Below are positions 4,545 to 56,331 of a DNA stretch of 64,000 bases, in pieces. The stretch covers positions 1 to 64,000 of the forward strand of contig NZ_ARQE01000010.1 in the NCBI RefSeq assembly GCF_000382705.1. The letters run 5' to 3'. The notes beneath the pieces were generated by a model. That model was not told the DNA's origin and did no database searches. It was given only the letters and a program-made list of their open reading frames with translations. The position numbers and the translations under genes are program-made. Origin of the DNA: Aureimonas ureilytica DSM 18598 = NBRC 106430. Its GTDB lineage: Bacteria; Pseudomonadota; Alphaproteobacteria; Rhizobiales; Rhizobiaceae. Numbering within the stretch: position 1 is the stretch's first letter; every line of letters begins with the position of its first letter.

Positions 4545-4634
4545 GCTCACACGGGGTGCCCATCCGGGCTGAGAGGCGTTCGCGTCAACCCGCCGAACCT
4601 GATCCGGCTCGTACCGGCGGAGGGATGGGGAGCA
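4545..4634 (+). ncRNA. TPP riboswitch (THI element)
   Basis: The conserved THI-box blocks are present in order: ACGGGGTGCC (4551-4560), GGCTGAGAGG (4567-4576), ACCCGCCGAACCTGATCC (4588-4605), then the pairing GGCTCGTACC and GGCGGAGGGATGGGG (ending about 4631). These form the two arms of the TPP aptamer, which binds thiamine pyrophosphate and lowers expression of the downstream genes. It precedes a thiamine transporter operon, as expected, and is followed by a possible terminator, which suggests control by transcription attenuation. Confidence 0.93.
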
Positions 4635-4641
4635 TCGCGGC

Positions 4642-4664
4642 GCTGCGGCTTCGCGGTCGTTTTT
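4642..4664 (+). terminator. Possible riboswitch-controlled terminator
   Basis: Directly after the aptamer, GCTGCG (4642-4647), loop GCTT and CGCGGT (4652-4657) can pair with two G-U pairs, followed by CG and a run of five T (4660-4664). This is a short but plausible intrinsic terminator, so TPP binding would stop transcription before thiB. An alternative is control of the ribosome site. Confidence 0.5.
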
Positions 4665-5704: not shown

Positions 5705-5786
5705 GATCGGCCTTTGCGCAGATGATGAAGATGACGATCGAGCGCGCGGCGATGGCCTTGCCGCGTCCGGCGCGCAGGACCTTCCG

Positions 5787-34248: not shown

Positions 34249-36972
34249 TCAGTCGGCCAGAAGAAGCGCCACGGGAAGCCGAGCCAGAACCTCGCTCAAC
34301 TTCAGGCTGGCGCCGGCGGCGACCGGCTCCCCGGTCAAGATGCACTCGAAGCGAGCCCCCGCAAGGTGCGAGGGAAGGCGAACCGCCGTGTCCCCCCAAG
34401 TTTTCGCCTCGGGCAGGGGCTGCTCGGCACTTTCGCCCAGAAGTTGCAGCGCCATGCGCGGCGCGATCGTGACCGCGACGCGCCCTTCCTCGTCGGTCCG
34501 GGCGAAGGCGACCACATGCTCGGCCTTCTCGCCGGTGACCTCGAGCGGGATGTAGCGCCCCTTGGTGAAGAGCGTCGGCGCCTTGATGCGGGCCTTCAAC
34601 GCGGCGGCCGTGAGCTTGGCCTTCACCCGCCCGTCGCGCCATTGCGGCAGGACGTCGGCGGGCGTGCCCCCCTCCTCCATCGCGCGCTTGCGGGCGGCGA
34701 AATCCACCTTGCGGCGGTTGTCGGGGTCGACGAGGCTCAGATCGTAGAACTCGGTGCCCTGGTAGATGTCGGGAACGCCCGGCGCGGTCAGCTTGATCAG
34801 CGTCTGCGACAGCGTGTTGAGCGCGCCGGCCACGACGAAGGGTTGCGCCTGCCGCCAGAAGCGCTCCAGAAGATCGCCCGTCTCGCCTTCGCGCAGGACC
34901 GCCGAGACGAAGCCCTTCAGCGCGCTTTCATAGGCTTCGTTCGGCGCGGTCCAGCTGGTGAAGCGCTTGGCCTCGCGCACCGCCTTTTCGGCGAAGGCGA
35001 GAAGGCGCTTTTCCGGCTCCTCGCGGGCCTTGGCGTCGGCCGGATCGAAATCGGCCGGCAGAACGCCGAGCAGCGACTGGTAGAAGCCCCATTCGGTGGC
35101 CGGGTCCGGCGAGACATGGGTCTCGCCCATCGCCGCCTCGCCCATCGCCTTGCGCCAGGGCTTCATGGCGTCGGCCATCTCACGCACCAGCTCGGCCCAG
35201 CGCTCGGGCGCCTCGCTTAAAGTATAGAGCCGGGCGCGCGCGTCCTCGCCGCGCTTGGTGTCGTGGGTGGAGGAGGCCATGAGCCCGTCCGGCTGGTCAT
35301 CCAGGCGAATACCCATCTCCTCGTGGAAGCGCGCCGGCGAGGTGCCGTAATGGTCCGGCTCGCCGCCCACTTCGTTGAGCGCGATCAGGCGGTTGTAGCG
35401 ATAGAAGACCGTGTCCTCCACGGCCTTGGCCATGACGGCGCCGGTGGTCTGCTGGAACCGTCGGGTGAAGTTGAGCGCGCCCGTCACGTCGCGCCCGTCC
35501 TCGAAGGCGAGCTTCAGGAGCTTGCCGACAAAGGCGATCGGCTCGTCGGCCTCGACCTTGCGGGTGCCTTTCGCGCGCTCCACCGTCTCGTCGATGACCT
35601 CGACATCCTTGTAAGGCACGCCGGCGACGCCGCAATAGGTGCGATAGACCGGCAGCGCGGTCGCGACTTCCACGATCGAACGGCTCATGTCGTCGCGGCC
35701 GAAATCGCGGGTTTCCAGATCGTTGGCCGCGACCTGCATGGCGGTCTCGGTCAGGACCTGCAATTCGCCCGCCAGATTGTGCGTGAAGATGGCGCGCTTC
35801 TGATCGGCGATCATGGCGCGCAGGTCTTCCTCCGTGCCGACGAAATCGGCATAGGCGCGCGTCATCGCCTCCTCTTTCGAGCCATCGACATAAAGGCCCG
35901 CGACGGCGGTGATGAACTCGTAGCCCGTCGTGCCCGCGATGTTCCAGCTCCGGCGCAGGCGCTCCGGTCCGGTCAGGATCTTCTCGACATGGATCGCGAC
36001 GTCGCGGCGCAGCGCCTCGAATCCGCTGGCGAGCTCGGCCAGATAGCCCTTGGGGTCGGCGACGCCGTCCACATGGTCGATGCGGATGCCGTCCAGCCGG
36101 CGCTCGCGCGCGAGCTGGTAGATCGTGCGGTGCGAATCCCGGAAGACGCGGCGCATTTCCTGGCGCACGCCGATGAGGTCGGCGATCTCGAAGAAGCGGC
36201 GGTAGGAGAGCTTCTCGCGCGCCAGACGCCACCAGGCGAGGCGCCAGGCCTGCGCCTCGTGGAAGGCGTGAAGCGCATCGCGGTCGGCGTTCAGCGCCTC
36301 GATGCCGCTCTTCAGCGCGGCGAGGAAGGCGGGGTCGGCGACATGCTCGGCGAAGCGCTCGCCCAGTTCCTCGCCATCGGCCGGCACGGCGGCCGAGAAG
36401 CGGCGCACCAGACTGTCGCGCTCGGGATGATCCACGAAGGAGAAGACGTGGCTGAGCGTGCGCGGATCGACCGGCAGGCCGTAGCCATTGGCGGTGAAGC
36501 GCACCTCGCCGCGCTTTTCGTCATAGACCACTTCCAAGGCGCCGCTGCGCAGCGCCTCGCCATAGGGCGAGCCGAGCGTCGGGATGAGGATCTTCTCCTC
36601 GTCCCAGGAAATGTCGAAGGTCTGCGCGTAGCGGCTTTCGCGGCCCCAGCGCAGGACGTCCTCCCACCAGGCGTTCTCCTGCGAGACGCCCATATGGTTC
36701 GGCACGAAGTCGAGGATGAGGCCGAGATCGGCCGCCATCAGCGCGTCGCTCATCGCGGTGAAGCCCGCGTCGCCGCCGAGATCGGCTTCGAAGCGATTGT
36801 AGTCCACGACATCGTAGCCATGGGTCGAGCCCGGCGAGGCCGAGAAGACGGGCGAGGCGTAGAGATGGCTCGCCCCCAGTTCCTTCAGATAGGGAACGAG
36901 GTCCTTGGCCTCTGAAAACCCGGTCCCCTCGCGGAACTGGAGCCGATAGGTCGCGATCAGGGGACGGCTCAT
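34249..36972 (-). CDS. treY: Malto-oligosyltrehalose synthase
   Basis: A 907-residue GH13 enzyme that rearranges the reducing-end bond of malto-oligosaccharides to a trehalose end. It begins 'MSRPLIATYRLQFREGTGFSEAKDLVPYLKELGASHLY', typical of TreY, and the catalytic Asp lies in 'GIRIDHVDG' (about D299). 'SSTHDTKRGEDARARL' and 'LNEVGG' are further TreY landmarks. The start overlaps the malQ stop by four bases. With TreZ it forms trehalose from glycogen or starch-like glucans, in the cytoplasm. Confidence 0.95.
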   Translation of the reverse strand: MSRPLIATYRLQFREGTGFSEAKDLVPYLKELGASHLYASPVFSASPGSTHGYDVVDYNRFEADLGGDAGFTAMSDALMAADLGLILDFVPNHMGVSQENAWWEDVLRWGRESRYAQTFDISWDEEKILIPTLGSPYGEALRSGALEVVYDEKRGEVRFTANGYGLPVDPRTLSHVFSFVDHPERDSLVRRFSAAVPADGEELGERFAEHVADPAFLAALKSGIEALNADRDALHAFHEAQAWRLAWWRLAREKLSYRRFFEIADLIGVRQEMRRVFRDSHRTIYQLARERRLDGIRIDHVDGVADPKGYLAELASGFEALRRDVAIHVEKILTGPERLRRSWNIAGTTGYEFITAVAGLYVDGSKEEAMTRAYADFVGTEEDLRAMIADQKRAIFTHNLAGELQVLTETAMQVAANDLETRDFGRDDMSRSIVEVATALPVYRTYCGVAGVPYKDVEVIDETVERAKGTRKVEADEPIAFVGKLLKLAFEDGRDVTGALNFTRRFQQTTGAVMAKAVEDTVFYRYNRLIALNEVGGEPDHYGTSPARFHEEMGIRLDDQPDGLMASSTHDTKRGEDARARLYTLSEAPERWAELVREMADAMKPWRKAMGEAAMGETHVSPDPATEWGFYQSLLGVLPADFDPADAKAREEPEKRLLAFAEKAVREAKRFTSWTAPNEAYESALKGFVSAVLREGETGDLLERFWRQAQPFVVAGALNTLSQTLIKLTAPGVPDIYQGTEFYDLSLVDPDNRRKVDFAARKRAMEEGGTPADVLPQWRDGRVKAKLTAAALKARIKAPTLFTKGRYIPLEVTGEKAEHVVAFARTDEEGRVAVTIAPRMALQLLGESAEQPLPEAKTWGDTAVRLPSHLAGARFECILTGEPVAAGASLKLSEVLARLPVALLLAD

Positions 36973-38820
36973 GGGGTCTCCGGTCTTTCGTCTCGCATCG
37001 CGCGAGCCATGGCTTGGAAGCGCTCGTCACCCGCCAGATCCTCCAGACGGATGTCGGAGCGGATGCGCCAGTTGGGATATTCGTCGGTCGTGCCGGGCAG
37101 GTTCGGCTGCTTTTCGGAGCCGATCATGTCCTCCACCTGCACGGCGAAGAGCATGGAATGCGTGCGCGCGCCGAAGCGGTGGATGGCGACCGCGAGATCG
37201 AAGGGCAGGCGCGCGGGAAGCTCGGCCTCCCCATGCGTCGCCGCGCCGTAGTCGGGCGGCAGAAGGTTCTCGTGGCGAAGCGCGGCGAGAAGCGTGCGCC
37301 GGTCGCGGTCGCGCTCGTTGAGATCGCGCTCGGTGGCGGCCGCGTTCTGCCGGCCGGTTTCGGAGCGAAGCCGAACGTCGGAGCCGTGCCACCAGCCCGA
37401 CAGCGTCGCGAGGTCGTGGGTGGAGATGCAGGCGAGCGAGGTCGTGGGATACTCGCTCGTCGCCTTGAACAGCCCGTCCTTCCAGCGCTCGAAATAGAGG
37501 ACCTTGTAGGACAGGATATGACTGTCGGCCATGGCCTCGCGAAAGCCCTCCGGCACGGTGCCGAGGTCCTCGCCGACGACGAGGCAGTTCGTGTCCTGCG
37601 ACACGCGGGCCAGCGCGTCCACCATGGCGCCGAGCGGATAGCGCACATAGCCCCCGCCCGCCGAGCGCTCGCCCTCGGGAATCCACCAGAGCCGAGCGAG
37701 ACCCATCGCATGGTCGATGCGGATCGCGCCGGCATGTTCCATGAGGCCGGCATAGGCGGCCGACAGCGGCGCGTATTGCCGCTCGGCCAGCGCCTTGGGC
37801 GAGAGCGGGGCGAGGCCCCAGTCCTGCCCGTCGGAATTGAACATGTCGGGCGGCGAGCCGACGCGCGCCTCGCGCACGGTCAGCGCCGGGTCGGCCCAGG
37901 TTTCCGCGCCGTCCGGCGACACGCCGACCGCGAAGTCGAGATAAAGGCCGATCCGCATTCCCGCCGCCTTGGCACGGCGCTGCGCTTCGGCGAGCTGGCG
38001 GTCGCAGAGATATTGCAGCCAGACATGGAAGCGGATCGCGTCCTCGTGCCCGGCCTCGAAGGTGCGCGCGCCCTCGCCGTTGCGGTCGCGCAGGTCTTCC
38101 GGCCAATTGTGCCAGCCGGCGCTGCCGCCCTCCGATCGCACGCTTTCCGAGATCGCCTCGAACAGGGCGAAGCCGCGCAGCGCGTCGCCGCCCCGCTCCA
38201 GAAAGGCGCGGAAGCTCTCATCGCGGCCGAGCCCGTCCTTGGCCTGCGCATAAAGCGTGCGCAGAAGCGGAACCTTCACCGCGCCGACCGCCTCGTAGTT
38301 CACGAGTTCGTCGCCGAGCCCCTCGAACAGGGCCGGATTCGTCTCGCGCAGGGCCGCGATCGCCGCCTCGCCCCCTTCGATCGTGTCGATCGCCAGATAG
38401 AACGGGTTGATGAAGCGGCGCGTGGAGGGCGAATAGGGGCTGTAGCGCCCCGCATCGCTCAGAAACAGCGCGTGCATCGGGTTGACGCCGACGAAGGCGG
38501 CTCCGGTTGGCGCCGCGGTTTCGGCGAGCCGCGCCAGATCCTCGAAATCGCCGATGCCGAGATTGCGGTCCGAGCGCAGGCTGTAGAGCTGGCAGGTGAC
38601 GCCCCAGGCGCGGCTGGAGGTCAAGGCCTCGGGCAGCGCGCAGGCAAGGCTCGGCTTCTGCTCCTCGGCCGCGAAGCGCCCCGCCTCGCCGCCGTCCGGG
38701 TCGACATGCAGCGCGCGGAGAAGCGCGGCCTGCGCCGCCTCGTCGATGCGTTTCGGCTCGCCCATTTCGGACGTGTAACGGATTTGGATGCCGTGGCTGT
38801 CGGCCAGCGTTTCGAGGCTC

Positions 38821-38828
<8 letters not shown>
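36969..38828 (-). CDS. malQ: 4-alpha-glucanotransferase
   Basis: A 619-residue GH77 enzyme (amylomaltase), transferring glucan segments between chains. The catalytic Asp is in 'RIDHAMGLARLWWIPEG' (D372), with 'VGEDLGTVPEGF' and 'STHDLATLSGWW' as further signatures, and the family's 'CQLYSLRSDRNLGIGDFEDL' start region. It begins eight bases inside the treZ 3' end and overlaps treY, so the three are translationally coupled. It probably supplies or trims the oligosaccharides used by TreY. Confidence 0.93.
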
Positions 38829-40707
<1,879 letters not shown>

Positions 40708-40919
40708 CAAAGGCTCCGCCGGTTCGCCGATGTCATGCTGGGCGAGCCCCCGTCCCTTCGCGCCGACAAGGGCCTCGTGGGGCGCGGGAGGGGGCTCGCA
40801 ACTCTTGCCTTGCGCTTAAGTGGAGCGGGAAGCGGCGGTGCCAGTGAGCGGGGAGGCGAAATTTTCTGGTCGCCCCCGCTGCTTGCCCGCCGTTCGAACC
40901 CGCTTCCGGCCCGCTCCGG

Positions 40920-42083
40920 TCAGCCGAGCGCCGGCTCCGCCTGGGGCTCGTTGGCGGCGTTGGACTGGCGGCCCATGTCCTCGGCTTCCTTCGAAAGCCC
41001 CTCGTCCGCCGACGCGCGCTGCCCGACGCGGCCATGCACGAGATCGTGGATGAAGCCGAGCTTGCCGATGACGGTCGGCGACAGGACGAAGGGATAAAGG
41101 TCCTGCAGGCCCATGGCGCGGTTCAAGGAGTTAAGCGCCTGGCTGAGCGCCAGCCAGGCGTCGGCGATCTCCTCCATCGTCGTGTTCGGGTCGTAGACCT
41201 TCACGTTGAGGTCGGTGGTGAGGATGCCGTCGCGATCGAGGCGCGGCTGGATGGCGATGCCGAAGGAGCCGCCCACTTCCAAAGTGTCGATGATGTGGAG
41301 ATAGTGCGCCCAGGTCTCGGCGAAATCCTCCCAGGCATGGGAGCCGGCATAGGAGGAAACGTAGTCCTCCTGCCAGTTGGGCTTGGGGCCGTTGTTGTAG
41401 TGGTTCTGGAGCGCCTGCCCGTAATCCTCGCGATCGTCGCCGAACACGGCGCGGCATTCGTCCAGGAGGTTGCCGTCGCGCACCAGGATGTCCCAGTACC
41501 AATGGCCGACCTCGTGGCGGAAATGGCCGAGCAGCGTGCGATAGGGCTCGCCCATCGCGGTGCGTCGGGATTCGCGCTCGGCATCGTCGGCCTCGGCGAG
41601 CGCCACGGTGATGATGCCCTCGTCATGGCCGGTCATGACCTTCTCGCCCGTCGCCGGGTCGTCGGCCAGGAACTTGAAGCCGAGCCCTTCGGGATGCTCG
41701 TCGCGCGTGTAGAGCGGGAGGTTGAGGCGCAGCAGCGTATAGAAGAGCCGGTGCTTGGCCGCTTCCATCTTCGCCCAGAGCGCCTGATTGTCGGGGTTCG
41801 ACAGGTCGGGCACCATGAGATTGTGCCGATCGGCGAGGCACAGGCGCTCGTCGGAGCCGGCGGGCACCAGCCAGTTGCAGACGCCGTACTGGTAATTGTC
41901 GCAATAGCGCCAGTGCGAACCGTCGCTGCCGCGACCGACCGAGACCCAGCCGTCGTCGGCCGCTTCCAGCGCCAGGACGCGGTTGGAACGCGGCTCGTAG
42001 CCGAGCGCGTGGCCGCAGCGCTCGCAGACCACATTGTTGAAGAAGACGACCTGATCGCAGGACGGGCAGGAAAAGAGCTTCAT
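40920..42083 (-). CDS. Zinc-ribbon putative zinc metallopeptidase
   Basis: A 387-residue cytoplasmic protein. The N terminus has a zinc ribbon (C6, C9, C20, C23: 'CPSC...CERCG'), the centre carries 'FRHEVGHWYW' with H190, E191 and H194 as the zinc and catalytic residues, and 'EDFAETWAHYLH' gives likely further ligands. This is the family often called putative zinc-binding metallopeptidase. The start MKLFSCPSC has the standard form. It is divergent from the transglutaminase/ATP-grasp operon with a shared 188-base intergenic region, suggesting joint regulation, and may process the product or targets of that operon. Substrate unknown. Confidence 0.82.
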   Translation of the reverse strand: MKLFSCPSCDQVVFFNNVVCERCGHALGYEPRSNRVLALEAADDGWVSVGRGSDGSHWRYCDNYQYGVCNWLVPAGSDERLCLADRHNLMVPDLSNPDNQALWAKMEAAKHRLFYTLLRLNLPLYTRDEHPEGLGFKFLADDPATGEKVMTGHDEGIITVALAEADDAERESRRTAMGEPYRTLLGHFRHEVGHWYWDILVRDGNLLDECRAVFGDDREDYGQALQNHYNNGPKPNWQEDYVSSYAGSHAWEDFAETWAHYLHIIDTLEVGGSFGIAIQPRLDRDGILTTDLNVKVYDPNTTMEEIADAWLALSQALNSLNRAMGLQDLYPFVLSPTVIGKLGFIHDLVHGRVGQRASADEGLSKEAEDMGRQSNAANEPQAEPALG

Positions 42084-42125
42084 GGGAGAAGTTCCAAGGC
42101 AAGAGGCGGGCGGAGTTGCGCGGCT

Positions 42126-42150
42126 AACTCGGCCCCGTCACGCTTGTTCC
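42126..42150 (-). promoter_or_regulatory. Possible EcfG-type promoter of the metallopeptidase
   Basis: On the minus strand GGAAC (plus 42146-42150), 16 bases, AGTT (plus 42126-42129), about 43 bases upstream of the start codon. It approximates the general-stress promoter with the same AGTT variant as at 28525. Tentative. Confidence 0.3.
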
Positions 42151-42271
42151 GCACTGCAACCGATTCCGTTAATAATTCCAGAGAATCGCACGCTCCCTGT
42201 GGCGCGGCGGTTTCGGCGTCCCTTGCGAGCGCCTATGCTGCCCTTTCGACCGGTCATGCCCAAGGGACCCG

Positions 42272-45200
42272 ATGCCGATCCTCGCCGCGCTCCGCCACCT
42301 GACCCATTACCGCTACGACCGCCCCGTCACGCTCGGGGCCCAGACGATCCGGCTGCGGCCGGCGCCCCATTCGCGCACCCGCACCCCGGCCTATGCGCTG
42401 CGGATCGAACCGGCCGGCCATTTCGTCAACTGGCAGCAGGACCCGTTCGGCAACTGGCTGGCGCGCGTCGTCTTTCCCGAGAAGGTGCGCGAGCTGCGCA
42501 TCGAGGTCGACCTTCTGGCCGACATGACGGTCTATAATCCGTTCGACTTCTTCATCGAGCCCGGGGCGGAGGAGTTTCCCTTTGCCTACAGCGCCGATCT
42601 CACGGTCGATCTGAAGCCCTATCTCGCCCATGACCCGGCCGGGCCGAAGCTCCAGAGCTTTCTCGAAACGGTGGACCGCACGCCCCGCCGCACGGTGGAT
42701 TTCCTGGTCGATCTGAACCGGCTGGTCGAGCAGCGCATCGACTATCTGATCCGCATGGAGCCGGGCGTGCAGACGCCCGAGGAGACGCTGGAAAAGGCCT
42801 CGGGCTCCTGCCGCGATTCCTCCTGGCTCCTCGTCAACGCGCTGCGCCATCTCGGCCTCGCGGCGCGCTTCGTGTCGGGCTACCTGATCCAGCTGAAGCC
42901 CGATCGCGTCGCCATCGACGGGCCGGCCGGCACATCCGTGGATTTCTGCGATCTCCATGCCTGGGTCGAGGTCTATGTGCCGGGCGCGGGCTGGATCGGG
43001 TTCGACCCGACCTCGGGCCTCATGACCGGCGAGAGCCATGTGCCGCTGGCGGCGACACCCCATTACCGCTCCGCCGCGCCGATCTCGGGCGGCGTCGATT
43101 TCGCCGAGACCGAGTTCGACTTCGCCATGGAGGTGACGCGCGTCTCCGAAGCGCCGCGCGTCTCCAAGCCCTTCTCGGACGAGAGCTGGGAGGCGCTCGA
43201 CGCGCTCGGCCACAAGGTCGATACCGATCTTCAGGCGATGGACGTGCGCCTCACCATGGGCGGCGAGCCGACCTTCGTCTCGATCGACGATTTCGAGGGC
43301 GCCGAATGGAACGCCGACGCGACGGGTCCGCGCAAGCGGGGCCTCGCCGACGGGCTCCTGCGCCGGCTCCAGACGCGCTTTGCGCAAGGCGGCTTCCTGC
43401 ACCATGGGCAGGGCAAGTGGTATCCCGGCGAATCCCTGCCGCGCTGGACCTATTCTCTTTATTGGCGCAAGGACGGGCAGCCGATCTGGCGCAACCCCGC
43501 TCTGTTCGCGCCCGAAGACGGCGCGCCGCCGGCCGTGGCCGACGATGCCCGCTCGCTTCTGGAAGGCGTCGCGGCCCGGCTCGGCGTCGAGCCCGGCAAC
43601 GCCCTGCCGGCCTATGAGGACCCGTCCTACTGGCTGGTGCGCGAGGCGCAGCTGCCCGAAAACGTCTCGCCGGGCAATTCCAAGCTCGAGAACCCGGAAG
43701 AGCGCGCGCGCCTCGCCCGCGTCTTCGACCGTGGGCTGAACAACCCGGTCGGCTACGTCATGCCGGTCCAGGCATGGCAGGCGCTGCCCGCGCGCTGGAT
43801 GTCCGAGCGCTGGTCGACCCGGCGCGGCAAGCTCTTCCTCGTGCCGGGCGATTCCGCGCTCGGCTATCGCCTGCCGCTCGCCTCCCTCCCCTATCTCTCA
43901 CCTGCGCGCTATCCCTACACGCATCCGGCCGACCCGATGCAGCGCCTGCCGGAATTGCCCGAGCGCGAGATCCTGGGGCAGGTGCAGCGGCGCATCTCGC
44001 AGGCCGACCCCGCCCCCGCCTGGTCGCCCCCCGAGCCCGGCCCCGAGGCCGAGATCGGCGGCTATGTGCGCACCGCGCTCGCCATCGAGCCGCGCGACGG
44101 CATCCTGCATGTCTTCATGCCGCCGCTGGAAACGGCCGAGGCCTATCTCGATCTTCTGGCCGCCGTGGAAGACGAGGCGGAGGCGCTCGGTCTCTTCGTG
44201 CGCATCGAGGGCTACGCCCCGCCCTTCGACCCGCGCCTCAACGTCATGCGCGTCGCGCCGGACCCCGGCGTGATCGAGGTGAACGTCCATCCCGCCGCGT
44301 CCTGGGACGAGGCCGTCGCCATTACTGAGGGCGTCTACGAGGACGCCCGCCAGTCGCGGCTCGGCACCGACAAGTTCATGGTGGACGGGCGGCATGCCGG
44401 CACGGGCGGCGGCAATCATGTGGTGATCGGCGGCGCGACGCCGCTCGACAGCCCGTTCCTGCGCCGGCCCGACCTTCTGAAGTCGCTGGTGCTCTACTGG
44501 CAGCGCCATCCCTCGCTGTCCTACCTCTTCTCCGGCCTCTTCGTGGGGCCGACGAGCCAGGCCCCGCGCATCGATGAAGCGCGCCATGACGGGCTCTACG
44601 AGCTGGAAATCGCGATGGCTGAGGTGCCTTCGCCGGGCGAAGGGCTGGCCCCGCCGCCCTGGCTGGTGGATCGCCTGTTCCGCAACCTCCTCGTGGACGT
44701 GACGGGCAACACGCATCGCTCGGAAATCTGCATCGACAAGCTCTATTCGCCCGATGGCCCGACGGGCCGGCTCGGCCTCGTCGAGTTCCGCGGCTTCGAG
44801 ATGCCGCCAGACGCGCGCATGAGTCTGGCCCAGCAGCTCCTCATCCGCGCGCTGATCGCCAAGTTCTGGCGCGAGCCGCAGTCAGGCCGCTTTGCCCGCT
44901 GGGGCACGCAGCTTCACGACCGCTTCATGCTGCCGGCGCTGATCTGGGAGGACTTCCTCGCGGTTCTCGCCGATCTCGACCGCTCGGGCTATCCGGTCCG
45001 GCCGGAATGGTTCGAGGCGCAGTGGGAATTCCGCTTCCCCTTCTGCGGCGAGGTCCGCCACGAGGGCGTGCGGCTGGAATTGCGTCAGGCGCTGGAGCCC
45101 TGGCATGTCATGGGCGAAACGGGCGCCATCGGCGGCACGGTGCGCTTCGTGGATTCCTCGGTGGAGCGGCTTCAGGTCATGGTCGAGGGCTACGACCCCG

Positions 45201-45589
45201 CCCGCCATATCGTGACCTGCAACGGACGGCCGGTGCCCTTGAACCCAACCCAGACGGTCGGCCAGTTCGTCGGCGGCGTGCGCTTCAAGGCGTGGCAGCC
45301 GGCGTCCGGCCTCCATCCGACCATTCCCGTCCATGCGCCGCTGACCTTCGACATCTACGATCGCTGGTCGGGCCGCTCGCTCGGCGGCTGCGTCTATCAC
45401 GTCGCCCATCCCGGCGGGCGCTCCTACGACACGTTCCCCGTCAACGCCAACGAGGCGGAGGCGCGCCGCCTCGCCCGGTTCGAGGCGATCGGCCACACGC
45501 CGGGCGCCTTCCAGCCGCCGCAGGAAATCCCCGACCCGAGCTTCCCGCACACGCTCGACCTCAGACGGCCGGCCTTCCTTGCTGTCTAG
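42272..45589 (+). CDS. Transglutaminase-like/DUF2126 protein
   Basis: An 1105-residue cytoplasmic protein. Residues 1-85 are the bacterial transglutaminase N-terminal beta-domain ('[24 protein letters not shown]'). The transglutaminase-like core holds a complete triad C180 ('GSCRDSSW'), H229 ('DLHAWVEV') and D245 ('GFDPTSG'). Residues from about 320 to the end are DUF2126, beginning '[15 protein letters not shown]'. Such proteins are co-encoded with circularly permuted ATP-grasp and alpha-E proteins in a predicted peptide or amide-bond modification system of unknown product. The start is supported by the family N terminus; the stop overlaps the next gene by 11 bases. Confidence 0.88.
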
Positions 45590-47951
45590 GAGCGAGCAGA
45601 CAGGGAGCACCGAGCCGGGGCGCTATGACGAGATGCGGCGCGCCGACGGCACGGTGCGCCCGCATTATCGCCCGCTCATGGACGCCCTTTCGGGCTGGAG
45701 CGAAGCGGAGCGCGACATGCGCTTTCGCGCCGCGCGGCAATACTTAAGCGAAGCCGGCGTCTTCTACCGCGCCGGCACGGAGGGCGGCGCGCGGCTTTGG
45801 CCGATCGCCTTCCCGCCCGTGGTCATCGAGGCGGAGGAATGGCGCCGGCTGGAAGCGGGCCTGCGCCAGCGCGCGCACTATCTCGAACGGCTGCTGGGCG
45901 ATCTCTACGGCGAGCGGCGCATGATCCGCGAGGGGCATCTGCCGGGCCTTCTCCTCGCCGGCAATCCGGAGTTCCTGCGCCCGCTCGCCGACCAGGGCCG
46001 CTCCGGCCGCCCGCTCCTGCGCTTCATCGCGATCGATCTCGGCCGGGGGCCGGACGGGCGCTGGCACGTGATCGGCGACCGGACGCAGGCGCCGTCCGGC
46101 TCCGGCTTCGCGCTGGAAAACCGCGTCGCGACCTCGCGCGCCTTTCCCGATCTCGTGCGCTCGCTCCATGTGCGCCGCCTCGCCGGTTTCTTCGGCCGCT
46201 TTCGCGAAACGCTGAACGCCCTGAACGGGACGGAGGGCGCGCGGGTCGGGCTTCTGACCCCTGGCCCGCTCAACGAGACCTATTTCGAGCATTCCTACCT
46301 CGCCCGCTATCTCGGCTTCCATCTTCTGGAAGGCGGCGATCTCGTGGTGCGCGGCGACGAGGCCAAGATCCGCACGGTGGACGGCCTGCGCCCGATGCGC
46401 GTTCTCTGGCGCCGTCTCGACGCCGATTACGCCGATCCGCTCGAACTCTATTCCCGCTCGCGCATCGGCACGCCGGGCCTCGTGCGCGCCATCCGCGCCG
46501 GCAAGCTCGAACTCGTCAACGCGCTCGGCTCGGCGCTTCTGGAAACGCCGGCCTTCGCCGCCTTCGAGGATGCCATGGCCCGCGCCCTGATCGGCGAGCC
46601 CTTGCAGCTTCCCGTCGTGGAAACGCGCTGGCTCGGCGCGCCGGGCGAACAGGGGCTGGCCGAGCATCTGCCCGAGGGCTGGCGCCTCGTCCCAGCGCTT
46701 CCCACGCCCTCCGGCCCGCGTCAGGCCGCCGGCCCCGACCACCTTCTGGAGCGCGCGCGCCGCAGCGGCGGCGCCGAGATCGTGGCCGCGCGGCAGCTTC
46801 CCCTCTCCACCGTGCCCGTCTTCGGCGACGGCGAGCTGGAAAGCCGGCCCGTCACCCTCCGCGTGTTTCTGGCGCGCGGCGAGGATGGCTGGGACGTCAT
46901 GCCCGGCGGCTTTGCCCGCGCCGCCCACGACGAGGGCGGCGACGCGCTCGGCATCACCGCCGGCGGGCGCTCGCTCGACGTCTGGATCGCCGGCGATCCC
47001 GACGAGCGGCCCGTCACGCTGCTCGCCCGCCCGAACGAGACCTATCAGCGCCGCCTGCCCGGCTCGCTGCCGGCGCGCGCGGCCGACAATCTCTTCTGGC
47101 TCGGTCGCTATGTGGAGCGGCTGGAAGTCGCCTTCCGCCATTGGCGCGCCGCGATCGACCGGGCGGAAGCGGGCGAGGACCCCGCGCCCGTGGACGAGGC
47201 GCGCATCGGCCTCCTGCGCATGGCTGGCGTCGGGCTCGGCGGAGCGGACCCGATCCACGGCTTGCGGGAGCTGGCCGACAGCGCCTTTCATCTGGCCTCG
47301 CGCATCCGCGACCGCTTCTCGCCCGACGCCTGGCGAGTTCTGGCCGAGATCGCCGAGGTGACGGCGGAGGCGGTGCGCCTGTCCCCGCGCGAGCGCGACG
47401 ACGCGCTTCTGGCCGGCCGCGTGCTGACGCGCCTCGCCGGCTTCGCGGGGCTCGTGCAGGAGAACATGTACCGCTTCACCGGCTGGCGCTTCCTCGAATG
47501 CGGCCGCCGGCTGGAGCGCCTGTCGGCCACGGCCGAGACGGCGGCGGCCTTCGTGGCGGCGGGGGGCGACGGCGTCTACGAGGCGTTGCTGGAGTTCACC
47601 GACAGCCGCATGACCTATCGCCGGCGCTTCTCGGTGGAACTGGGAGCGGCGACCGTGATCGACCTGACGCTTCTCGACCCACTGAACCCGCGCTCCCTCG
47701 CCTTCCAGGCGCGCACGCTGGAGGCGACGCTCGCCGACCTGCCGGGCAACCTGCCGGGCGAAAGCCTCGACGCCGCCTCGCGCCGCGCGGCCCGGCTCCG
47801 CGTCCGGCTCCAGACCGCCGAGGCCAGCGAGGTCACGCCCGCCTTCCTGCGCCGCGTGGCGCGCGACGGGTTCGACATGTCCGATCTTCTTTCGCAGCGC
47901 TATTTCGCCCTCGCGCCCGCCGGCGAGATCGACCGCGCGGACACGGAATAG
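45579..47951 (+). CDS. Circularly permuted ATP-grasp / alpha-E fusion protein
   Basis: A 790-residue fusion. Residues 1-480 are a type 2 circularly permuted ATP-grasp (DUF404/DUF407; '[18 protein letters not shown]', '[29 protein letters not shown]'), expected to form an ATP-dependent amide bond. Residues 495-790 are the helical alpha-E domain (DUF403; '[18 protein letters not shown]'). In many genomes these are two separate genes. The TTG at 45579 is chosen because '[11 protein letters not shown]' is conserved and no ATG precedes it; ATG 45633 would remove it. It overlaps the preceding gene by 11 bases, so translation is coupled. Partner and substrate unknown. Confidence 0.85.
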
Positions 47952-47955
47952 CGCC

Positions 47956-48885
47956 ATGAGCCGCTACGATATCCGCCTGGAGATCGGCTACAGCTATCCC
48001 GGCTTCGTTCGCGACGCCCGGCACATCCTGCGCATCGCGCCGCGCGCCGGGGCCGGGCAGAGCGTCGAGCGCTTCCGCCTCGCGATCCTGCCGGAGCCCT
48101 CCGAACATGTCATCGAGGGCGACTTCTTCGGCAACCGCAGCGACCATGTCCTGATCGACCATCCGCACGAGGCGCTGCGCGTCGAGATGCGCGCGCGCGT
48201 CGATGTCCGCCGCCCCCTGCCCGAGCTCGGCGGCACCTTGAGCGTCGGCGCGGTGGTGGCCGAGGCGGCGCGCTCGCGCGACAGCGAGGGCGAAGGGCCG
48301 CTGCAGTTTCTAGGCTCCGGCCGGCTCGTCGCGCCTTCCGACGCGGTCGCGGCCTATCTCGGCGAGAGGCTGACCCCGGACATGCCGATCGGCGAGGCGG
48401 CGCTCGCCCTGTCGCGCCGCATCCAAGCCGAGTTCCGCTTCCAGGCGGGCGTCACCACGATCTCGACCCGCGTGGAGGAGACCTTCAGCGCGCGCCGGGG
48501 CGTGTGCCAGGATTTCTCGCATCTGATGATCGCGGGCCTGCGGGGCCTCGGCCTGCCCGCCGCCTATGCCAGCGGCTTCCTGCGCACCGAGCCGCCGCCC
48601 GGCCAGCCGCGCCTCGAAGGGGCGGACGCCATGCATGCCTGGGTGGAGGTCTGGACCGGGGCGGCAGGCGGCTGGCTCGGCTTCGACCCGACCAATGGCT
48701 GCTTTGCCGGCGAGGATCACGTTCTCGTGGCGCGCGGTCGCGATTATGCCGATGTCGCGCCGATCGACGGCGTGCTCATGACCTCCGGTCCGCAGCGCCA
48801 CCATCATGCGGTGGACATGGTGCCGATCGGGGACGAGGCGCCGGTTCCCGCGCGGCCCGACAGGCCGGCGGTCGCATCTCCTTAA
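47956..48885 (+). CDS. Transglutaminase-like cysteine peptidase family protein
   Basis: A 309-residue protein with the bacterial transglutaminase N-terminal domain (1-80, 'MSRYDIRLEIGYSY') and a catalytic core with C184 ('RRGVCQDFSHLM'), H227 ('DAMHAWVEVW') and D244 ('GFDPTNGC'). These proteins act as peptidases or acyl transferases; here it starts four bases after the ATP-grasp/alpha-E stop and completes the operon. It is distinct from the 1105-residue protein upstream, so the operon encodes two transglutaminase-like active sites. No signal peptide, so cytoplasmic. Confidence 0.9.
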   Translation: MSRYDIRLEIGYSYPGFVRDARHILRIAPRAGAGQSVERFRLAILPEPSEHVIEGDFFGNRSDHVLIDHPHEALRVEMRARVDVRRPLPELGGTLSVGAVVAEAARSRDSEGEGPLQFLGSGRLVAPSDAVAAYLGERLTPDMPIGEAALALSRRIQAEFRFQAGVTTISTRVEETFSARRGVCQDFSHLMIAGLRGLGLPAAYASGFLRTEPPPGQPRLEGADAMHAWVEVWTGAAGGWLGFDPTNGCFAGEDHVLVARGRDYADVAPIDGVLMTSGPQRHHHAVDMVPIGDEAPVPARPDRPAVASP

Positions 48886-50225: not shown

Positions 50226-52508
50226 TCAGGCCTTCACGAGATCCTGCTCGTCGAGGAGTGCGGCGTCCAGCGCCGGCTCGGCCGCTTCTCCCGCCTCGCG
50301 GCGCGGCGCGAAGACCACGGTCGAGAGCGGCGGGAGGCTCAGCGACAGCGAGAAGGGCCGGCCGTTGCAATGGACCTCCTCGGCCTCGCGCCCGCCCATA
50401 TTGCCGACATTCGAGCCGCCATAGATCTCGGCGTCGGTGTTCATCACCTCTTCCCAGAAGCCGCCATGGGGCACGCCGACGCGGTAGCCATGGTGGACAT
50501 TGGGCGTGAAGTTGCAGACCACCAGCGCCGGGCGGCCTTCGCGGTCCTTGCGCAGGTAGGCCAGAACCGACTGCTCGACATTCGACGTGTCCACCCACTC
50601 GAAACCGTGCGGGTCGCAGTCGTTTTCATGCAGCGCCGGCAGGCCGCGATAGAGCGTGTTGAGATCGCGCACGAGGCGCTGCACACCGCGATGCTCGGCA
50701 TGGTCGAGCAGGTGCCAGTCGAGCGACTGGTCGTGGTTCCATTCCGCCGACTGGCCGAACTCACCGCCCATGAAGAGCAGCTTCTTGCCGGGATGGGTCC
50801 ACATGAACCCGTAATAGGCGCGCAGGTTTGCGAATTTCTGCCACCAGTCGCCCGGCATCTTCCCGAGAATGGAGCCCTTTCCATAGACCACTTCGTCATG
50901 GCTGAGCGGCAGGACGAAGTTCTCGGAATAGGCATAGACCATTCCGAAGGTCATGTGGTGCATGTGGTATTTGCGGTTGATCGGGTCTTCCTGCATGAAA
51001 TGCAGCGTGTCGTGCATCCAGCCCATGTTCCACTTGAAGTGGAAGCCGAGGCCGCCGGCATAAGTCGGGCGCGACACGTTGGGGAAGGAGGTCGATTCCT
51101 CCGCATGGGTCGTGGCGTTCGGGAATTGCCCGCCGACCTGCTCGTTCGTCTCCTTCAGGAAGGCCATGGCCTCCAGGTTCTCGCGCCCGCCATAGATATT
51201 GGGCTCCCATTCGCCATGGCTGCGCGAATAGTCGAGATAAAGCATGGAAGCGACGGCATCGACGCGAAGTCCGTCGATATGGAAGCGGTCGAGCCAGTAG
51301 AGCCCGTTGGAGACGAGGTAGTTCTTCACCTCCGTCCGGCCGTAGTCGTAGATCAGCGTGTTCCAGTCCTTGTGGAAGCCCCGGCGCGGATCGGCATGTT
51401 CATAGAGCGCCGTGCCGTCGAAGCGGCCGAGCCCGTGAATGTCGGTTGGGAAATGGCCGGGCACCCAGTCGAGGAGGACGCCGATATCGGCCTGGTGGAA
51501 CGCGTCCACGAGCCGTGCGAAGCCGGCCGGGTCGCCATACCTCGCGGTCGGCGCGTAGAGGCCGATCGGCTGATAGCCCCAGGAGCCGTAGAACGGATGC
51601 TCCGACACCGGCAGGAACTCGACATGGGTGAAGCCCATCTCCTTCACATAGGCGACGAGCTCGCGCGCCAGCGCGTCGTAGTCGAGGAAGGAATTGTAAT
51701 CGCCGCGCTTCCAGGAGCCGAGATGCACCTCGTAGATCGAGACGGGCTTGTCGGCCGACTGCCAGTCGCTCCATTTGGAGCGGAAGGCGTCGTCCTTCCA
51801 TTCGTGCTCCACCAGCCCGTCCACGACGGAGGCGGTGGAGGGCGCGAGTTCCTGGCGGAAGCCGACCGGATCGGCTTTCAGCGGCAGAACCTCGCCATGC
51901 CCGCCGATCAGCTCATATTTGTAGACCTCGCCGCGCCCGAGGCCGGGCACGAAAATCTCGAACACGCCGGCATCGACGCGCTTGCGCATGATATGGCGCC
52001 GCCCGTCCCAAGCGTTGAAATTGCCGACCACCGAGACGCGGCGGGCATCGGGCGCCCAGACCGCGAAGGCGACGCCCTTCACCCCGTCCATCTCGGTCGG
52101 GTGCGCGCCGAGCTTCTCGTACAGGCGGTAATGCCGCCCCTCGCGCATGAGATAGGTGTCGAGATCGCCTAAGATCGGGCCGAAGCGATAGGTGTCCTCC
52201 TCCTCCCACGAACTGTCGCCGTGCCAGAAGCGGAAGAGATGGTCGTCGAACCCCTCGGCGACGACGCCGGAGAAGAGGCCGTCCACCTCGCCGCGCTCGA
52301 GATCGGCCAGAACCTGACCCTTGCGGTCGATCACCTCGGCGCGCTCGGCGCCCGGGCGGAAGACACGCACCACGGCGCTGCCGTCGCCCGTGCGATGAGG
52401 GCCGAGAACGGCGAAGGGGTTTTCGTGACGGCCCTGCGCCAGGGCGCGCGCCTCGTCCCCATGCAGGCCGTGATCGATGCCGGAACCGGCGGAAAGAGTC
52501 TGGCTCAT
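50226..52508 (-). CDS. glgB: 1,4-alpha-glucan branching enzyme
   Basis: A 760-residue GH13 branching enzyme with N-terminal CBM48-type domains ('[14 protein letters not shown]', '[27 protein letters not shown]') and the barrel from about 250. The nucleophile is D417 in '[17 protein letters not shown]', with 'HAEESTSFP' holding the acid/base Glu and '[14 protein letters not shown]' conserved. It adds alpha-1,6 branches to glucan. ATG 52508 shares a base with the mak stop (TGATG). In the GlgE pathway it branches the polymer made by GlgE; no glgA or glgC is seen in the window. Confidence 0.96.
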
Positions 52509-54067
52509 CAAAGGACCTGTCGTGTCTGGAGAAGGGAGACGATCCCGCGCAGCGGAATCGACAGCCAGGCGGGACGCATCGCCGCCTCGTAGCGCAGTTC
52601 GTAGAAGGCTTTCTGCAAAAGGAAGAGATCGAGAAGCCGGGCGTTCCCCTCGTCCGTGAGATCGACGCCGCTCGCCTCTTCCCAGGCGCGCAGGAACGCC
52701 GCCGAGGTTTCGTCGCGCCAGCGCTCGGCCTCGGCCCTTGCGCGCTCGGCCAGCGCCGGATCGTCGGTGCGGATCGCATCCAGCGCGGCGAAGGCGGCAT
52801 AGTCGTAGGAGCGCAGCATCCCCGCGACATCGCGCAGCGGCGAGGTCTTGGCGCGGCGCTCGGGCAGGGAGCGGCCCGGCTCGCCCTCGAAATCGAGGAT
52901 CACGATATCGTCGCCGCGCACCAGAAGCTGGCCGAGGTGATAATCGCCATGGATGCGCGTGCGCCGCCCGGCCGGCTCCAGCTGCTTGAAGCTTTCGAAC
53001 CAGGCGGAAATGGCCTCCTCGCGCTCGCTCAGCGCCGCGATGTCGGCGCTCACATCCGCGCCGCCCCGAACGCCGCGCAGAACGGCGATCGCGCCAGAGG
53101 CCTCGTGCTTGGCCTCGTCCACGATGCGGGCGAGCGAGACGCGGTCCAGCGGCTCGGGGTCGAAGGCGGCATCGCCCGTCTGCGTGCCCAGCGCCGCATG
53201 CATCTCGCCCGTGCGCCGGCCGATCGTGCGGCCGGGATCGAAGGTGAAGGACGCGGATTGGCCCCCCTCGCCGGCGCGCAGGCTCGCGGCGAGAGCGCCG
53301 GTGACGGCGGCCCAGGCATCCTCGGCCCCCGTGATGCGCTCGAACAGGGCCGCGACGGCGGCGTGGCTGCCATCGGGCCGCGCCAGTTCCAGCGAGCCGA
53401 GGAGCGCCGGCGCGGCGGGAAAGCCGGTGTTCTCGGTCAGGAACTCCGTCACCTCCAGCTCGGGCTGCTCGCCATCGCGCAGGAGACGGTAGAATTTCAG
53501 GATCGCGACGCGGCCGATGCCGATCGACGTGTTGGACTGCTCGCCCGACAGCGGCGCGATCTCGCCGGTCTCGACGGCCGCCGCCGCCTCCAGCCGGTCG
53601 GCCTTGGCGCTGGAGGCCTTGGCGAGAAGCGCCGCGCCGCCCGCCTCCATCCGTCCGCCCTCCGCGATCAACCCGACGATGGCGCGGCAGAAGGCGGGGT
53701 CGCGCGTCGCGTCGATCAATTGCCGGTCACCCGTGAGCGTTCCGACCATCGAGGGCTTGATCCCCTCGCCGCGCGCGCGGACGGCGAGCGGCAGGAAATA
53801 GTGCTGCTCGCCCTCGCCCGTCGCGATCACCGCTTCGCCGGCCAGCGCCTCGTTCGCGCCCTCCACCATGCCGACCGGCACGAAGCGGACGCCGCTCAGG
53901 CGCTCGGACTTCGCCGCGAACCAGCGCTGCCCCTTCAGAAAGCGCGCCAGCGCCTCGCTCACCGCCGGGCCGGCGGCAAGACCGGGCAGCGCGGCCTCGG
54001 CGAAGGCGGGAAGAGCGTCGGACGACGTGTCGCCGGCCTTGGGGGAGACGGTTTCGGTCATGCGCAT
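52508..54067 (-). CDS. mak: Maltokinase-like protein
   Basis: A 519-residue aminoglycoside-phosphotransferase-like kinase. The N-terminal cap contains '[16 protein letters not shown]', typical of Mak/Pep2, and the catalytic loop is '[12 protein letters not shown]' (D375) with the metal-binding 'ILDFEGEP' (D392). Mak phosphorylates maltose to maltose 1-phosphate, the donor for GlgE. In many bacteria it is fused to trehalose synthase TreS, but this form is free-standing. A second ATG at 54061 is possible. Located between glgE and glgB. Confidence 0.88.
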
Positions 54068-54159
54068 CCATCGTCAACAGCGGTCGGCGGAGGCCGGACC
54101 TTCGAGTGAGGAAGAGGGAAGAACGGGAGGCGGGTCCGTATAGCCGCCTCCCTCTCCCG

Positions 54160-56208
54160 TCAGACGGATAGACGGAAAATGGCGTAGGGAAGTTCCGCCG
54201 GCTCGAACCACCAATGCTGAACCTTGCCGGACCAGACGAACTGGCGGTCGTTCACGAGGTCCTCGACCTTCACCGTGCCATTGTCGGGCAGGCCGAATTC
54301 CCAGAGCGGCACTTCGAAATGGCCGCCCTGCGCCTGATGCGGGTCGAGCGTCACCATGACGAGGAGGAAGGACGAGAGATCGGCCGTCCGCTTGCCGTAG
54401 TAGAGGATGTTGTCGTTCCAGAACTGGTAGAATTCCAGATTGCGGAAATCGCGCAACGCCGGCTCGGACTGGCGCAGGCGGTTGAGGAGCGCGAAGTCGT
54501 CCCGAATGTTGCCCTCGCGCTTCCAGTCGAAGGCGCGGATCTCGTATTTCTCGGAGTCCTTGTACTCTTCCTTGCCGGTGACGAGCGGCTCGTATTCGCA
54601 GAGCTCGAAGCCGGAATAGACGCCGTAATTGCCCGCCAGCGTCGCGGCCAGCGCGGCGCGGATGCGGAAGCCCGGCCGCCCGCTCGTATGGAGGAAGAGC
54701 GGGTTGATATCCGGCGTGTTCACGAAGAAGTTCGGCCGCATGTATTCGGCGCATTCTTCCTTCGTCAGCTCGGTCAGATACTCGCGCAGCTCCCATTTCA
54801 GGTTGCGCCAGGTGAAATAGGAATAGCTCTGGTTATAGCCGACCTTGGCGAGGCGCTTCATGAGCTTGGGCCGGGTGAAGGCCTCCGCCAGGAAGATGAC
54901 ACCGGGGTCCACCGCGCGCACTTCCGCGATCATCCATTCCCAGAACGGGAAGGGCTTGGTGTGCGGGTTGTCGACGCGGAAGATGCGAACGCCCTTGTCC
55001 AGCCAGAACAGGACGATGTCGCGCAGCTCGACCCAGAGCGAGGGGATCGCGTCCGGCCCGTAGAAGTCGACATTGACGATGTCCTGATACTTCTTCGGCG
55101 GGTTCTCGGCATATTTGATCGAGCCGTCCGGCCGCCAGTCGAACCAGCCCTTGTGCTCCTTGATCCAGGGATGGTCGGGCGAGCACTGGATGGCGAAGTC
55201 GAGCGCGATCTCCAGCCCATGATCGGCCGCGCGCGTCACGAGACGCTGGAAATCGGCGAAGGAGCCGAGCTGCGGGTGAAGGTCCTTGTGGCCGCCCTCG
55301 TGCGAGCCGATCGCATAGGGGCTGCCCGGCTCGCCCTCTTTGGCCGTGACGCTGTTGTTCTTGCCCTTGCGGTTCGACTTGCCGATCGGGTGGATCGGCG
55401 GAAAATACAGGACGTCGAAGCCCATTTCCTGGATATCGGGCAGGCGCGCGATCACGTCGTCGAACGTCCCGTGGCGCGCGGGATCGCCGGATTGCGAGCG
55501 CGGCATCAACTCGTACCACGCCGAGAAGCCCGCCGCCTCGCGGTCCACCCAGACCGGCACTTCGAGAGGATAATGGGTGAGGTTGGCCCGCACGCCCGCG
55601 CGGCGCAGAAGCTCGATCGTGTCGGCCTCGGTGAGAACAGCGTAGAGCGCCGCCTCGTCTTTCAGCTTGCGCAGCTTCTCGACCCGGCCGCGCAGGTCCT
55701 TCAGGGCCTTGGCGTCCTCGCGCGAGCCACGGCCGGACTCGGCCGCCTGTTCCAGAAGCCCCTCGCCTTCGCGCAGTTCGAGCGCGATGTCGACGCCCGC
55801 GTCGCGCTTCTTCTTCGTGTCGCTCGCCCAGGTGCCGAACACGTCGCGCCAGGCGATGATGGAATAGCGATAGGGGCCGGGCGTGGCGAAACGCACGGTG
55901 GCGCCCCAGCGGTCGTTGCCGATGAAGACGAAGGGCGTTTCCTGGCCCTCCATCTCGCCGCCATGGGTGATGAGCGCGGCGGCGATGATCTCGTGCCCGT
56001 CGGAGAAGATGTCGGCCGTGACCGTCAGCGGCTCGTTCTCGACGCGCTTGACCGCAAAGCGGCCGCCGTCGATCAGCGGCTCGACGCCTTCGATCACGAC
56101 GCGGGCGCCGGCCAGATCCTTCAAAAGGGCGATGGACTGTTCCTGAGCGGCGGCCTGAGCGGCCGCGCGCTTCTTGGGCTTGACCGCGACGGGTTCGGGG
56201 AGAGCCAT
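54160..56208 (-). CDS. glgE: Alpha-1,4-glucan:maltose-1-phosphate maltosyltransferase
   Basis: A 682-residue GH13 enzyme that extends alpha-1,4-glucan using maltose 1-phosphate. The N-terminal domain 'RVVIEGVEPLIDGGRFAVKRVENEPLTVTADIFSDGH' and the insert domain with 'ELMPRSQSG' are typical. The nucleophile is D413 in 'IFRVDNPHTKP', the acid/base E442 in 'FLAEAFTRP', and 'TPDINPLFLHTSGRPGF' is conserved. ATG 56208 gives the standard N terminus. First gene of glgE-mak-glgB; 92 bases separate it from mak. Confidence 0.95.
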   Translation of the reverse strand: MALPEPVAVKPKKRAAAQAAAQEQSIALLKDLAGARVVIEGVEPLIDGGRFAVKRVENEPLTVTADIFSDGHEIIAAALITHGGEMEGQETPFVFIGNDRWGATVRFATPGPYRYSIIAWRDVFGTWASDTKKKRDAGVDIALELREGEGLLEQAAESGRGSREDAKALKDLRGRVEKLRKLKDEAALYAVLTEADTIELLRRAGVRANLTHYPLEVPVWVDREAAGFSAWYELMPRSQSGDPARHGTFDDVIARLPDIQEMGFDVLYFPPIHPIGKSNRKGKNNSVTAKEGEPGSPYAIGSHEGGHKDLHPQLGSFADFQRLVTRAADHGLEIALDFAIQCSPDHPWIKEHKGWFDWRPDGSIKYAENPPKKYQDIVNVDFYGPDAIPSLWVELRDIVLFWLDKGVRIFRVDNPHTKPFPFWEWMIAEVRAVDPGVIFLAEAFTRPKLMKRLAKVGYNQSYSYFTWRNLKWELREYLTELTKEECAEYMRPNFFVNTPDINPLFLHTSGRPGFRIRAALAATLAGNYGVYSGFELCEYEPLVTGKEEYKDSEKYEIRAFDWKREGNIRDDFALLNRLRQSEPALRDFRNLEFYQFWNDNILYYGKRTADLSSFLLVMVTLDPHQAQGGHFEVPLWEFGLPDNGTVKVEDLVNDRQFVWSGKVQHWWFEPAELPYAIFRLSV

Positions 56209-56331
56209 GGACGAACCTTCTTTGCCGTTGCGACGAGGCGGGAGCCGCGCCCCTGTTCTTGGCAAAGGAATAGGGGGCGGCGTCGATTCATCCAGTCACG
56301 CGGCGCGCTTTCTCCCGCGCCGGCCCCGGCT

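Follow-up and report, generated by a model that had tools for sequence, protein, structure and literature searches.

How does an operon encoding two transglutaminases and a fused ATP-grasp/Alpha-E protein work, and what part is taken by the zinc metallopeptidase encoded divergently from it? The question is raised by a 64,000-nucleotide stretch of Aureimonas ureilytica DSM 18598 (NZ_ARQE01000010.1), hereafter the window, which lies on contig C10 of the analysed genome G000. The initial annotation of the locus, made from the window alone, had proposed a tag-and-cleave system in which the zinc protease may take the place of the proteasome-like protease Anbu. We favour, with moderate confidence, a different reading: a peptide-ligation/processing system built of two modules, to which the window operon would contribute the accessory one (module B). 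The domain assignments indicate that module B consists of a transglutaminase-DUF2126 protein, an ATP-grasp/Alpha-E fusion and a second transglutaminase (TG2), with the metallopeptidase alongside, and that module A, on another contig, consists of a solo CP-ATP-grasp, Alpha-E and Anbu. The window operon most likely works together with module A.

The Anbu operon, composed of CP-ATP-grasp, Alpha-E, transglutaminase and Anbu genes, was reportedly described by Iyer et al. in 2009 as a predicted peptide-tagging or peptide-synthesis system. In the portions available, two papers of 2017 likewise treat the Anbu operon as a predicted system for peptide synthesis or tagging, give it no confirmed role, and report elevated Anbu in nitrogen-limited Pseudomonas putida (PMC5666114, PMC6376114). 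The ATP-grasp of the Yersinia bercovieri Anbu operon liberates phosphate from ATP (PMC6376114). A Burkholderia cenocepacia cluster of DUF404/407, DUF403 and two transglutaminases is under NtrC/sigma-54 control (PMC5491218), and in marine metagenomes such domains are found clustered with those of urea metabolism (PMC3597751).

Results

An Anbu operon on another contig

The initial annotation had found no Anbu. This held for the window operon, where neither the open reading frames (ORFs) nor a PF00227 search revealed one, but not for the genome. The genome-wide PF00227 search detected two proteins, one on contig C1, which we take to be HslV, and one on contig C4. The C4 gene (C4:56727-57275, within locus L005) encodes a protein matching solved Anbu chains (5nyj, E 1.4e-77), and a PF04168 search placed a second Alpha-E gene directly ahead of it, in one locus with a solo CP-ATP-grasp gene. 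The solo CP-ATP-grasp of L005 keeps all of the compared ATP-site residues, which the window operon does not.

The same trio of solo ATP-grasp, Alpha-E and Anbu was found in three more Aureimonas loci (L149-L151). Transglutaminase was missing from the Anbu operon in all four Aureimonas loci checked (L005, L149, L150, L151), the Alpha-E-to-Anbu gap of approximately 165 bases in L005 being too small for it. A transglutaminase-type match lay between or overlapping Alpha-E and Anbu in 16 fetched full Anbu operons (L120-L124, L126-L136), although the match in L129 was weak (48 bits). As the genome contains only two Bact_transglu_N matches, both in the window, the Anbu operon and the window operon may share transglutaminases.

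Degenerate ATP-grasp domain of the fusion

The ATP-grasp domain of the fusion is present by homology, but the residues at the expected metal and ATP sites have been lost. Residues 10-472 are homologous to 3n6x (E 1.5e-51), the solved structure of a putative glutathionylspermidine synthase-like CP-ATP-grasp, which the solo CP-ATP-grasp matched with E 1.2e-190. The LEDN and VVKEVxGSGGYGM-like motifs are kept by 3n6x and the solo proteins, but not by the fusion, and alignment with the genome's own solo protein revealed Gly-Asp-Arg in place of Glu-Asp-Asn. The comparison was extended to 45 solo proteins and 52 fused ones, the latter set leaving out the Aureimonas fusions of L009-L018 and L033. Glu156 and Asn158 of the ExN motif were found in 0/52 fused and 45/45 solo proteins, Lys364 in 14/52 and 45/45, and the glycine-loop residues G370, G371 and G373 in 3, 4 and 4 of the 52 fused proteins and each in 45/45 solo proteins. 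All six residues together were kept by 45/45 solo proteins and by none of the 52 fused ones. In six further actinobacterial fusions, the full set was again absent (0/6), with Glu156 and Asn158 missing, Lys364 present in two and G371 in three. Glu156 and Asn158 are presumably magnesium ligands, as in the Escherichia coli glutathionylspermidine synthetase. The fusion ATP-grasp thus lacks the residues to which homology assigns metal and ATP binding, and the domain is read here as a pseudo-ATP-grasp; the working ATP-grasp assumed in the initial annotation does not agree with the alignment. Both the fused and the solo forms retain the ER motifs of Alpha-E, located at residues 513-514 and 646-647 of the fusion.

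A tree of 61 rows, comprising every second row of the fused and solo groups plus some actinobacterial rows, separated 32 fused from 29 solo sequences by one branch with 100/100 support, which is compatible with a single old loss. In this tree, the window fusion lies on a long branch (1.27), and its amino-acid composition is unusual. The fused ATP-grasp of Aureimonas altamirensis (P0081) lacks most of the lysine/glycine-loop stretch, a state of advanced decay. No mention of an inactive, degenerate or pseudo ATP-grasp was found in the literature searched, with Iyer et al. 2009 outside it, and no priority is claimed.

Co-occurrence of the components

The sample of Pseudomonadota comprised 150 genomes, 147 of which had at least 90% completeness and at most 5% contamination. 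The metallopeptidase was detected in 24 genomes, DUF2126 in 46, Anbu in 54 and Alpha-E in 84, indicating that the Alpha-E system is widespread. Solo Alpha-E was present in 46/46 genomes with DUF2126 and in 38/104 without it (p=1.2e-15); that is, DUF2126 was never found without solo Alpha-E. The association persisted when kinship was handled by collapsing to 92 genera (26/26 versus 27/66, p=3e-8). This survey counted Alpha-E rather than solo ATP-grasp; the latter was itself present in the 28 DUF2126 genomes with fetched loci, the other 18 of the 46 being unfetched. Fused and solo Alpha-E were distinguished by an open frame of 800 amino acids, which possibly misjudges long overlapping frames, and by this rule five DUF2126 genomes had no fusion and three fusion genomes had no DUF2126.

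The metallopeptidase also accompanied these systems, as the initial annotation had anticipated. Alpha-E was found in 23/24 metallopeptidase genomes versus 61/126 others, DUF2126 in 17/24 versus 29/126, and Anbu in 18/24 versus 36/126 (odds ratio 7.5, p=3.3e-5; Anbu was surveyed with one protein query, which divergent forms could escape). The genus-collapsed associations were weaker but still held (p=0.003, 0.009 and 0.019). Within the DUF2126 genomes, the metallopeptidase occurred in 4/18 without Anbu and in 13/28 with Anbu. Among 119 Actinomycetota genomes, Alpha-E was present in 7/7 with a full-length metallopeptidase versus 14/112 others, the two genes lying within 15 kb of each other in six of the seven. 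Two genomes, G000 and (as the Actinomycetota centre) G163, had been chosen for carrying the genes; when both were left out, the metallopeptidase-Alpha-E association persisted (p=1.4e-5 and 1.2e-5). The survey of Bacteroidota was uninformative, since only 2/118 genomes had a full-length metallopeptidase and one of these was the chosen centre. Partial Pseudomonadota metallopeptidase matches (G111:C84, G149:C1, G035:C1), a below-cut-off DUF2126 fragment (G002:C95), an Alpha-E fragment of 47 positions (G107:C89) and below-cut-off Actinomycetota matches (G284, G391:C1:1397845) were dropped, and split DUF2126 pieces were counted once. In Pseudomonadota and Actinomycetota, the metallopeptidase is thus found together with Alpha-E systems, sometimes as a neighbour.

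Gene neighbourhoods

A module gene was located near the metallopeptidase in 29 of 48 loci. It was present in 10/11 Aureimonas loci, the exception (L014) being an orphan copy of the strain that also provided L033; these Aureimonas phyllosphaerae records (L014:10001-11071, L033) show an extra metallopeptidase copy distant from the operon. All 10 Mycobacterium loci had a module gene (TG2 in 10, the fusion in 7 and DUF2126 in 4, several of the contigs being short), and all four Hymenobacter loci had solo ATP-grasp, Alpha-E and transglutaminase genes nearby. The corresponding numbers were 5/8 for other Bacteroidetes, Opitutales and Verrucomicrobia, 0/14 for Bradyrhizobium and 0/1 for Novosphingobium. 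The metallopeptidase adjoined the module in only 7 of the 24 Pseudomonadota genomes carrying it. No general common neighbour was found in 20 metallopeptidase loci (L100-L119), in which a GGDEF-type family recurred in seven loci and the remaining recurrences were mostly confined to single genera.

All six gene types were found in two actinobacterial blocks (L144:5467-15526 and L146:4207-14543), where the metallopeptidase, transglutaminase-DUF2126, TG2, fusion, Alpha-E and solo ATP-grasp genes lie on the same strand; no Anbu was found in these blocks. The same four protein types as in the window lie close together in Mycobacterium L049, L052, L053 and L055 and Actinomycetota L138, L141 and L142. 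L138 has the three module genes ordered as in the window, with the metallopeptidase after TG2; the other six have the metallopeptidase beside TG2, and strand arrangements differ from that of the window. Identity between the Mycobacterium loci and the window was approximately 42% for the metallopeptidase and 32-34% for the fusion. Anbu was not found with one protein query (E 0.001) in four Hymenobacter genomes and five Mycobacterium genomes, the sources of L049, L052, L053 and L055 included. Anbu lay within 15 kb of 11 of 46 DUF2126 genes, eight of these 11 also with solo and fused Alpha-E, and in G102 the metallopeptidase gene converges on an adjacent Anbu gene, the profile matches being 50 bases apart.

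Organization of the window operon

The ORFs and coordinates of the four genes, as well as the 188-base divergent gap described in the initial annotation, were confirmed by ORF, Pfam and coordinate checks (Table 1). The Pfam scores, well above the cut-offs throughout, were 342.7 bits for Peptidase_Mx and 98.7 for Zn_ribbon_DZR_6 in the metallopeptidase, 1322.7 for DUF2126, alongside a transglutaminase match in the same protein, 361.4 for CP_ATPgrasp_2 and 172.8 for Alpha-E in the fusion, and 65.5 for the transglutaminase match of TG2. NCBIfam profiles gave no match to any of the four proteins.

Table 1. Features of the window operon and of module A (window positions unless a locus is given)
Feature	Position	Strand	Basis
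Metallopeptidase, Zn_ribbon_DZR_6 + Peptidase_Mx, 387 aa	40920..42083	-	Pfam
HEVGH zinc-binding motif of metallopeptidase (HExxH, residues 190-194)	41502..41516	-	Alignment
Divergent intergenic region, 188 bases	42084..42271		Between metallopeptidase and transglutaminase-DUF2126 genes
Transglutaminase-DUF2126 fusion (putative amidoligase), 1105 aa	42272..45589	+	Pfam; triad C180/H229/D245
Transglutaminase core domain of DUF2126 fusion	42674..43009	+	Pfam
DUF2126 domain, complete, profile 2-826 of 826	43100..45565	+	Pfam
CP-ATP-grasp/Alpha-E fusion, 790 aa, interpreted as pseudo-ATP-grasp	45579..47951	+	Pfam, alignments
Gly-Asp-Arg replacing Glu-Asp-Asn of solo CP-ATP-grasps	46074..46082	+	Alignment
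Alpha-E domain, both ER motifs retained	47067..47906	+	Pfam, alignment
Second transglutaminase (TG2), Bact_transglu_N + Transglut_core, 309 aa	47956..48885	+	Pfam; triad C184/H227/D244
Module A: solo CP-ATP-grasp 5106-6518; Alpha-E 6543-7556; Anbu ending 8462	L005:5106-8462

The complete catalytic triads noted in the initial annotation were conserved, each Cys, His and Asp being kept in at least n-1 of the 47 aligned rows for the DUF2126-fused transglutaminase and of the 58 rows for TG2, as in transglutaminase-like cysteine enzymes. In Opitutales (L038:11284-14549, L044:10247-13368), the transglutaminase-DUF2126-like match is split over two ORFs adjoining the metallopeptidase. H190, E191 and H194 of the metallopeptidase HExxH motif and the downstream acidic residues E252 and E256 were kept in 72/72 aligned proteins, consistent with a Peptidase_Mx zincin, and a weak profile match to the solved zinc metallohydrolase 9urd was obtained (E 8e-4).

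The 188-base gap contained scattered conserved columns in nine aligned Aureimonas sequences, including that of the window, and matched neither the sigma-54 nor the sigma-70 consensus. A GGDEF gene lies downstream of the operon. The operon is bracketed by treY-, malQ- and treZ-like genes on one side and by glgB-like and other genes on the other (window 34249-40710 and 50226-56265), presumably genes of trehalose/glycogen metabolism. This bracket is kept in Aureimonas but not in the other genomes sampled, and the genes were rejected as functional partners, as only the Aureimonas loci among the 48 metallopeptidase loci have them beside the module, with one exception, a glgB-like match (29%) in L038 of Opitutales. 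A phmmer search with these genes against L057-L136 gave nothing above 25 bits. Elsewhere, the window contains a TPP (thiamine pyrophosphate) riboswitch at 4542-4642 (+) and a tRNA-Arg gene (CCT) at 3585-3661 (-) beside a 403-amino-acid ORF at 2301-3512.

Discussion

The window operon has Alpha-E with its ER motifs, CP-ATP-grasp homology and transglutaminases in common with the Anbu operon, which G000 carries as well. It differs from Anbu-type systems in having neither intact ATP-grasp residues nor Anbu, and adds DUF2126, the fused degenerate ATP-grasp, a second transglutaminase and the metallopeptidase. In the two-module scheme, the solo ATP-grasp and its Alpha-E partner would form an amide bond with a peptide or amino acid as the acceptor, and the fusion may be a non-catalytic partner or substrate holder delivering the product to the putative DUF2126 amidoligase, which would act as a second ligase. 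The transglutaminase-fold cysteine enzymes would transfer or hydrolyse the amide, and Anbu and/or the zinc metallopeptidase may trim peptides or recycle them. In other bacteria, expression is seen when nitrogen is limiting, which suggests a role in nitrogen storage, scavenging or a peptide metabolite, rather than a constitutive protein tag. A more specific form of the scheme, for which we claim only a tentative standing, regards the fusion as an ancient conserved pseudo-ligase serving the solo pair, that is, a heteromeric ligase in which the pseudoenzyme controls or channels the product to DUF2126.

Several observations weigh against the two-module scheme. In the available part of PMC6376114, pull-downs with the Y. 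bercovieri Anbu-operon proteins yielded no specific interaction, and none of the substrates tested was cleaved by Anbu. The sampled species are related, and the genus-collapsed p values for the metallopeptidase lie between 0.003 and 0.019. In Pseudomonadota, 19 of the 26 full-length metallopeptidase genes lie more than 15 kb from any module gene. The ATP-grasp tree is unrooted and thus leaves the direction and number of losses undefined, while D157, R172, D279 and R426 stay conserved in the fusion, arguing that it is not simply decaying. The assignment of DUF2126 as a GS-like circularly permuted amidoligase comes from its Pfam name and the literature; PDB profiles gave no match below E 0.4, and hhalign with GCS2, whose profile was also doubled allowing for permutation, scored 19.8, close to the background of an unrelated control (19.2). 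Finally, no transglutaminase lies between Alpha-E and Anbu in L109, and their matches are only approximately 100 bases apart, by match positions, in G031 and G077, so that the lack of a transglutaminase there in Aureimonas argues only weakly for sharing.

The rival explanations concern the fusion, the peptidase and the product. The stand-alone tag-and-cleave model, where the fused ATP-grasp would ligate a tag for transfer by the transglutaminases and the zinc protease, in place of Anbu, would remove it, is favoured by the position of the metallopeptidase next to module genes in Aureimonas, Mycobacterium, Hymenobacter, Niastella and others, as well as by the failure to detect Anbu in the Hymenobacter and Mycobacterium genomes searched. 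We regard it as very improbable and largely refuted for G000, which encodes Anbu: the association of the metallopeptidase with Anbu is positive, DUF2126 genomes lacking Anbu carry the metallopeptidase no more often than those with Anbu, the metallopeptidase and Anbu genes are neighbours in G102, and the fusion has lost its ATP-site residues. Anbu elsewhere with a paralogous operon and a degenerate ATP-grasp, two outcomes that the initial annotation itself had named as refuting, were thus both found, whereas the third, missing co-occurrence with the metallopeptidase, was not. The idea that the metallopeptidase takes over from Anbu was rejected for G000 and for the Pseudomonadota sample, but may hold in Hymenobacter and Mycobacterium, where the metallopeptidase stands beside the operon. 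The metallopeptidase could also be an independent housekeeping peptidase that simply lies beside the operon in some lineages, as the orphaned genes of the Pseudomonadota sample, the Bradyrhizobium and Novosphingobium loci and the Aureimonas copy in L014 would suggest; its co-occurrence with Alpha-E in Pseudomonadota and Actinomycetota and its adjacency in loci of these two phyla, Bacteroidota and Opitutales make this improbable.

That the fusion is still ATP-dependent with a remodelled metal site is an unlikely alternative, for which the largely conserved replacing residues (mostly D-R-T-Q-A-P-S-G) speak: Gln occupies position 160 in 45/52 fused proteins, where solo proteins have Arg in 45/45, Arg occupies position 158 in 36/52, and D157 is kept in 50/52 and R172, D279 and R426 in 52/52. 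Yet Glu at position 156 and Asn or an acidic residue at position 158 were each found in 0/52, position 156 holding one Asp and one Asn among the 52, the glycine loop is mostly lost, with the whole loop stretch absent from P0081, and the window protein itself is the long-branched, unusually composed sequence noted above. A better, though still less than even, chance is given to a secreted small peptide metabolite, rather than a protein tag, as the product. A heterologous metagenomic clone from Ulva with ATP-grasp, Alpha-E, transglutaminase and protease genes is listed as antinematode in a table citing a thesis (PMC7764037), and a related cluster is under nitrogen control (PMC5491218); that table, however, assigns the clone no causal gene, compound or chemistry, and no transporter is among the operon's own ORFs.

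The kind of system to which the window operon belongs is already known, and the pseudo-ATP-grasp and the two-module dependency are useful additions to it. Together, the modules resemble a peptide ligation/processing pathway. The comparisons suggest that one half of this widespread system has an inactive ATP-grasp, occurs together with the other half and is associated with peptidases of two kinds. For experiments, this would designate the solo protein as the target of assays and the fusion as its partner, and may guide the choice of double deletions.

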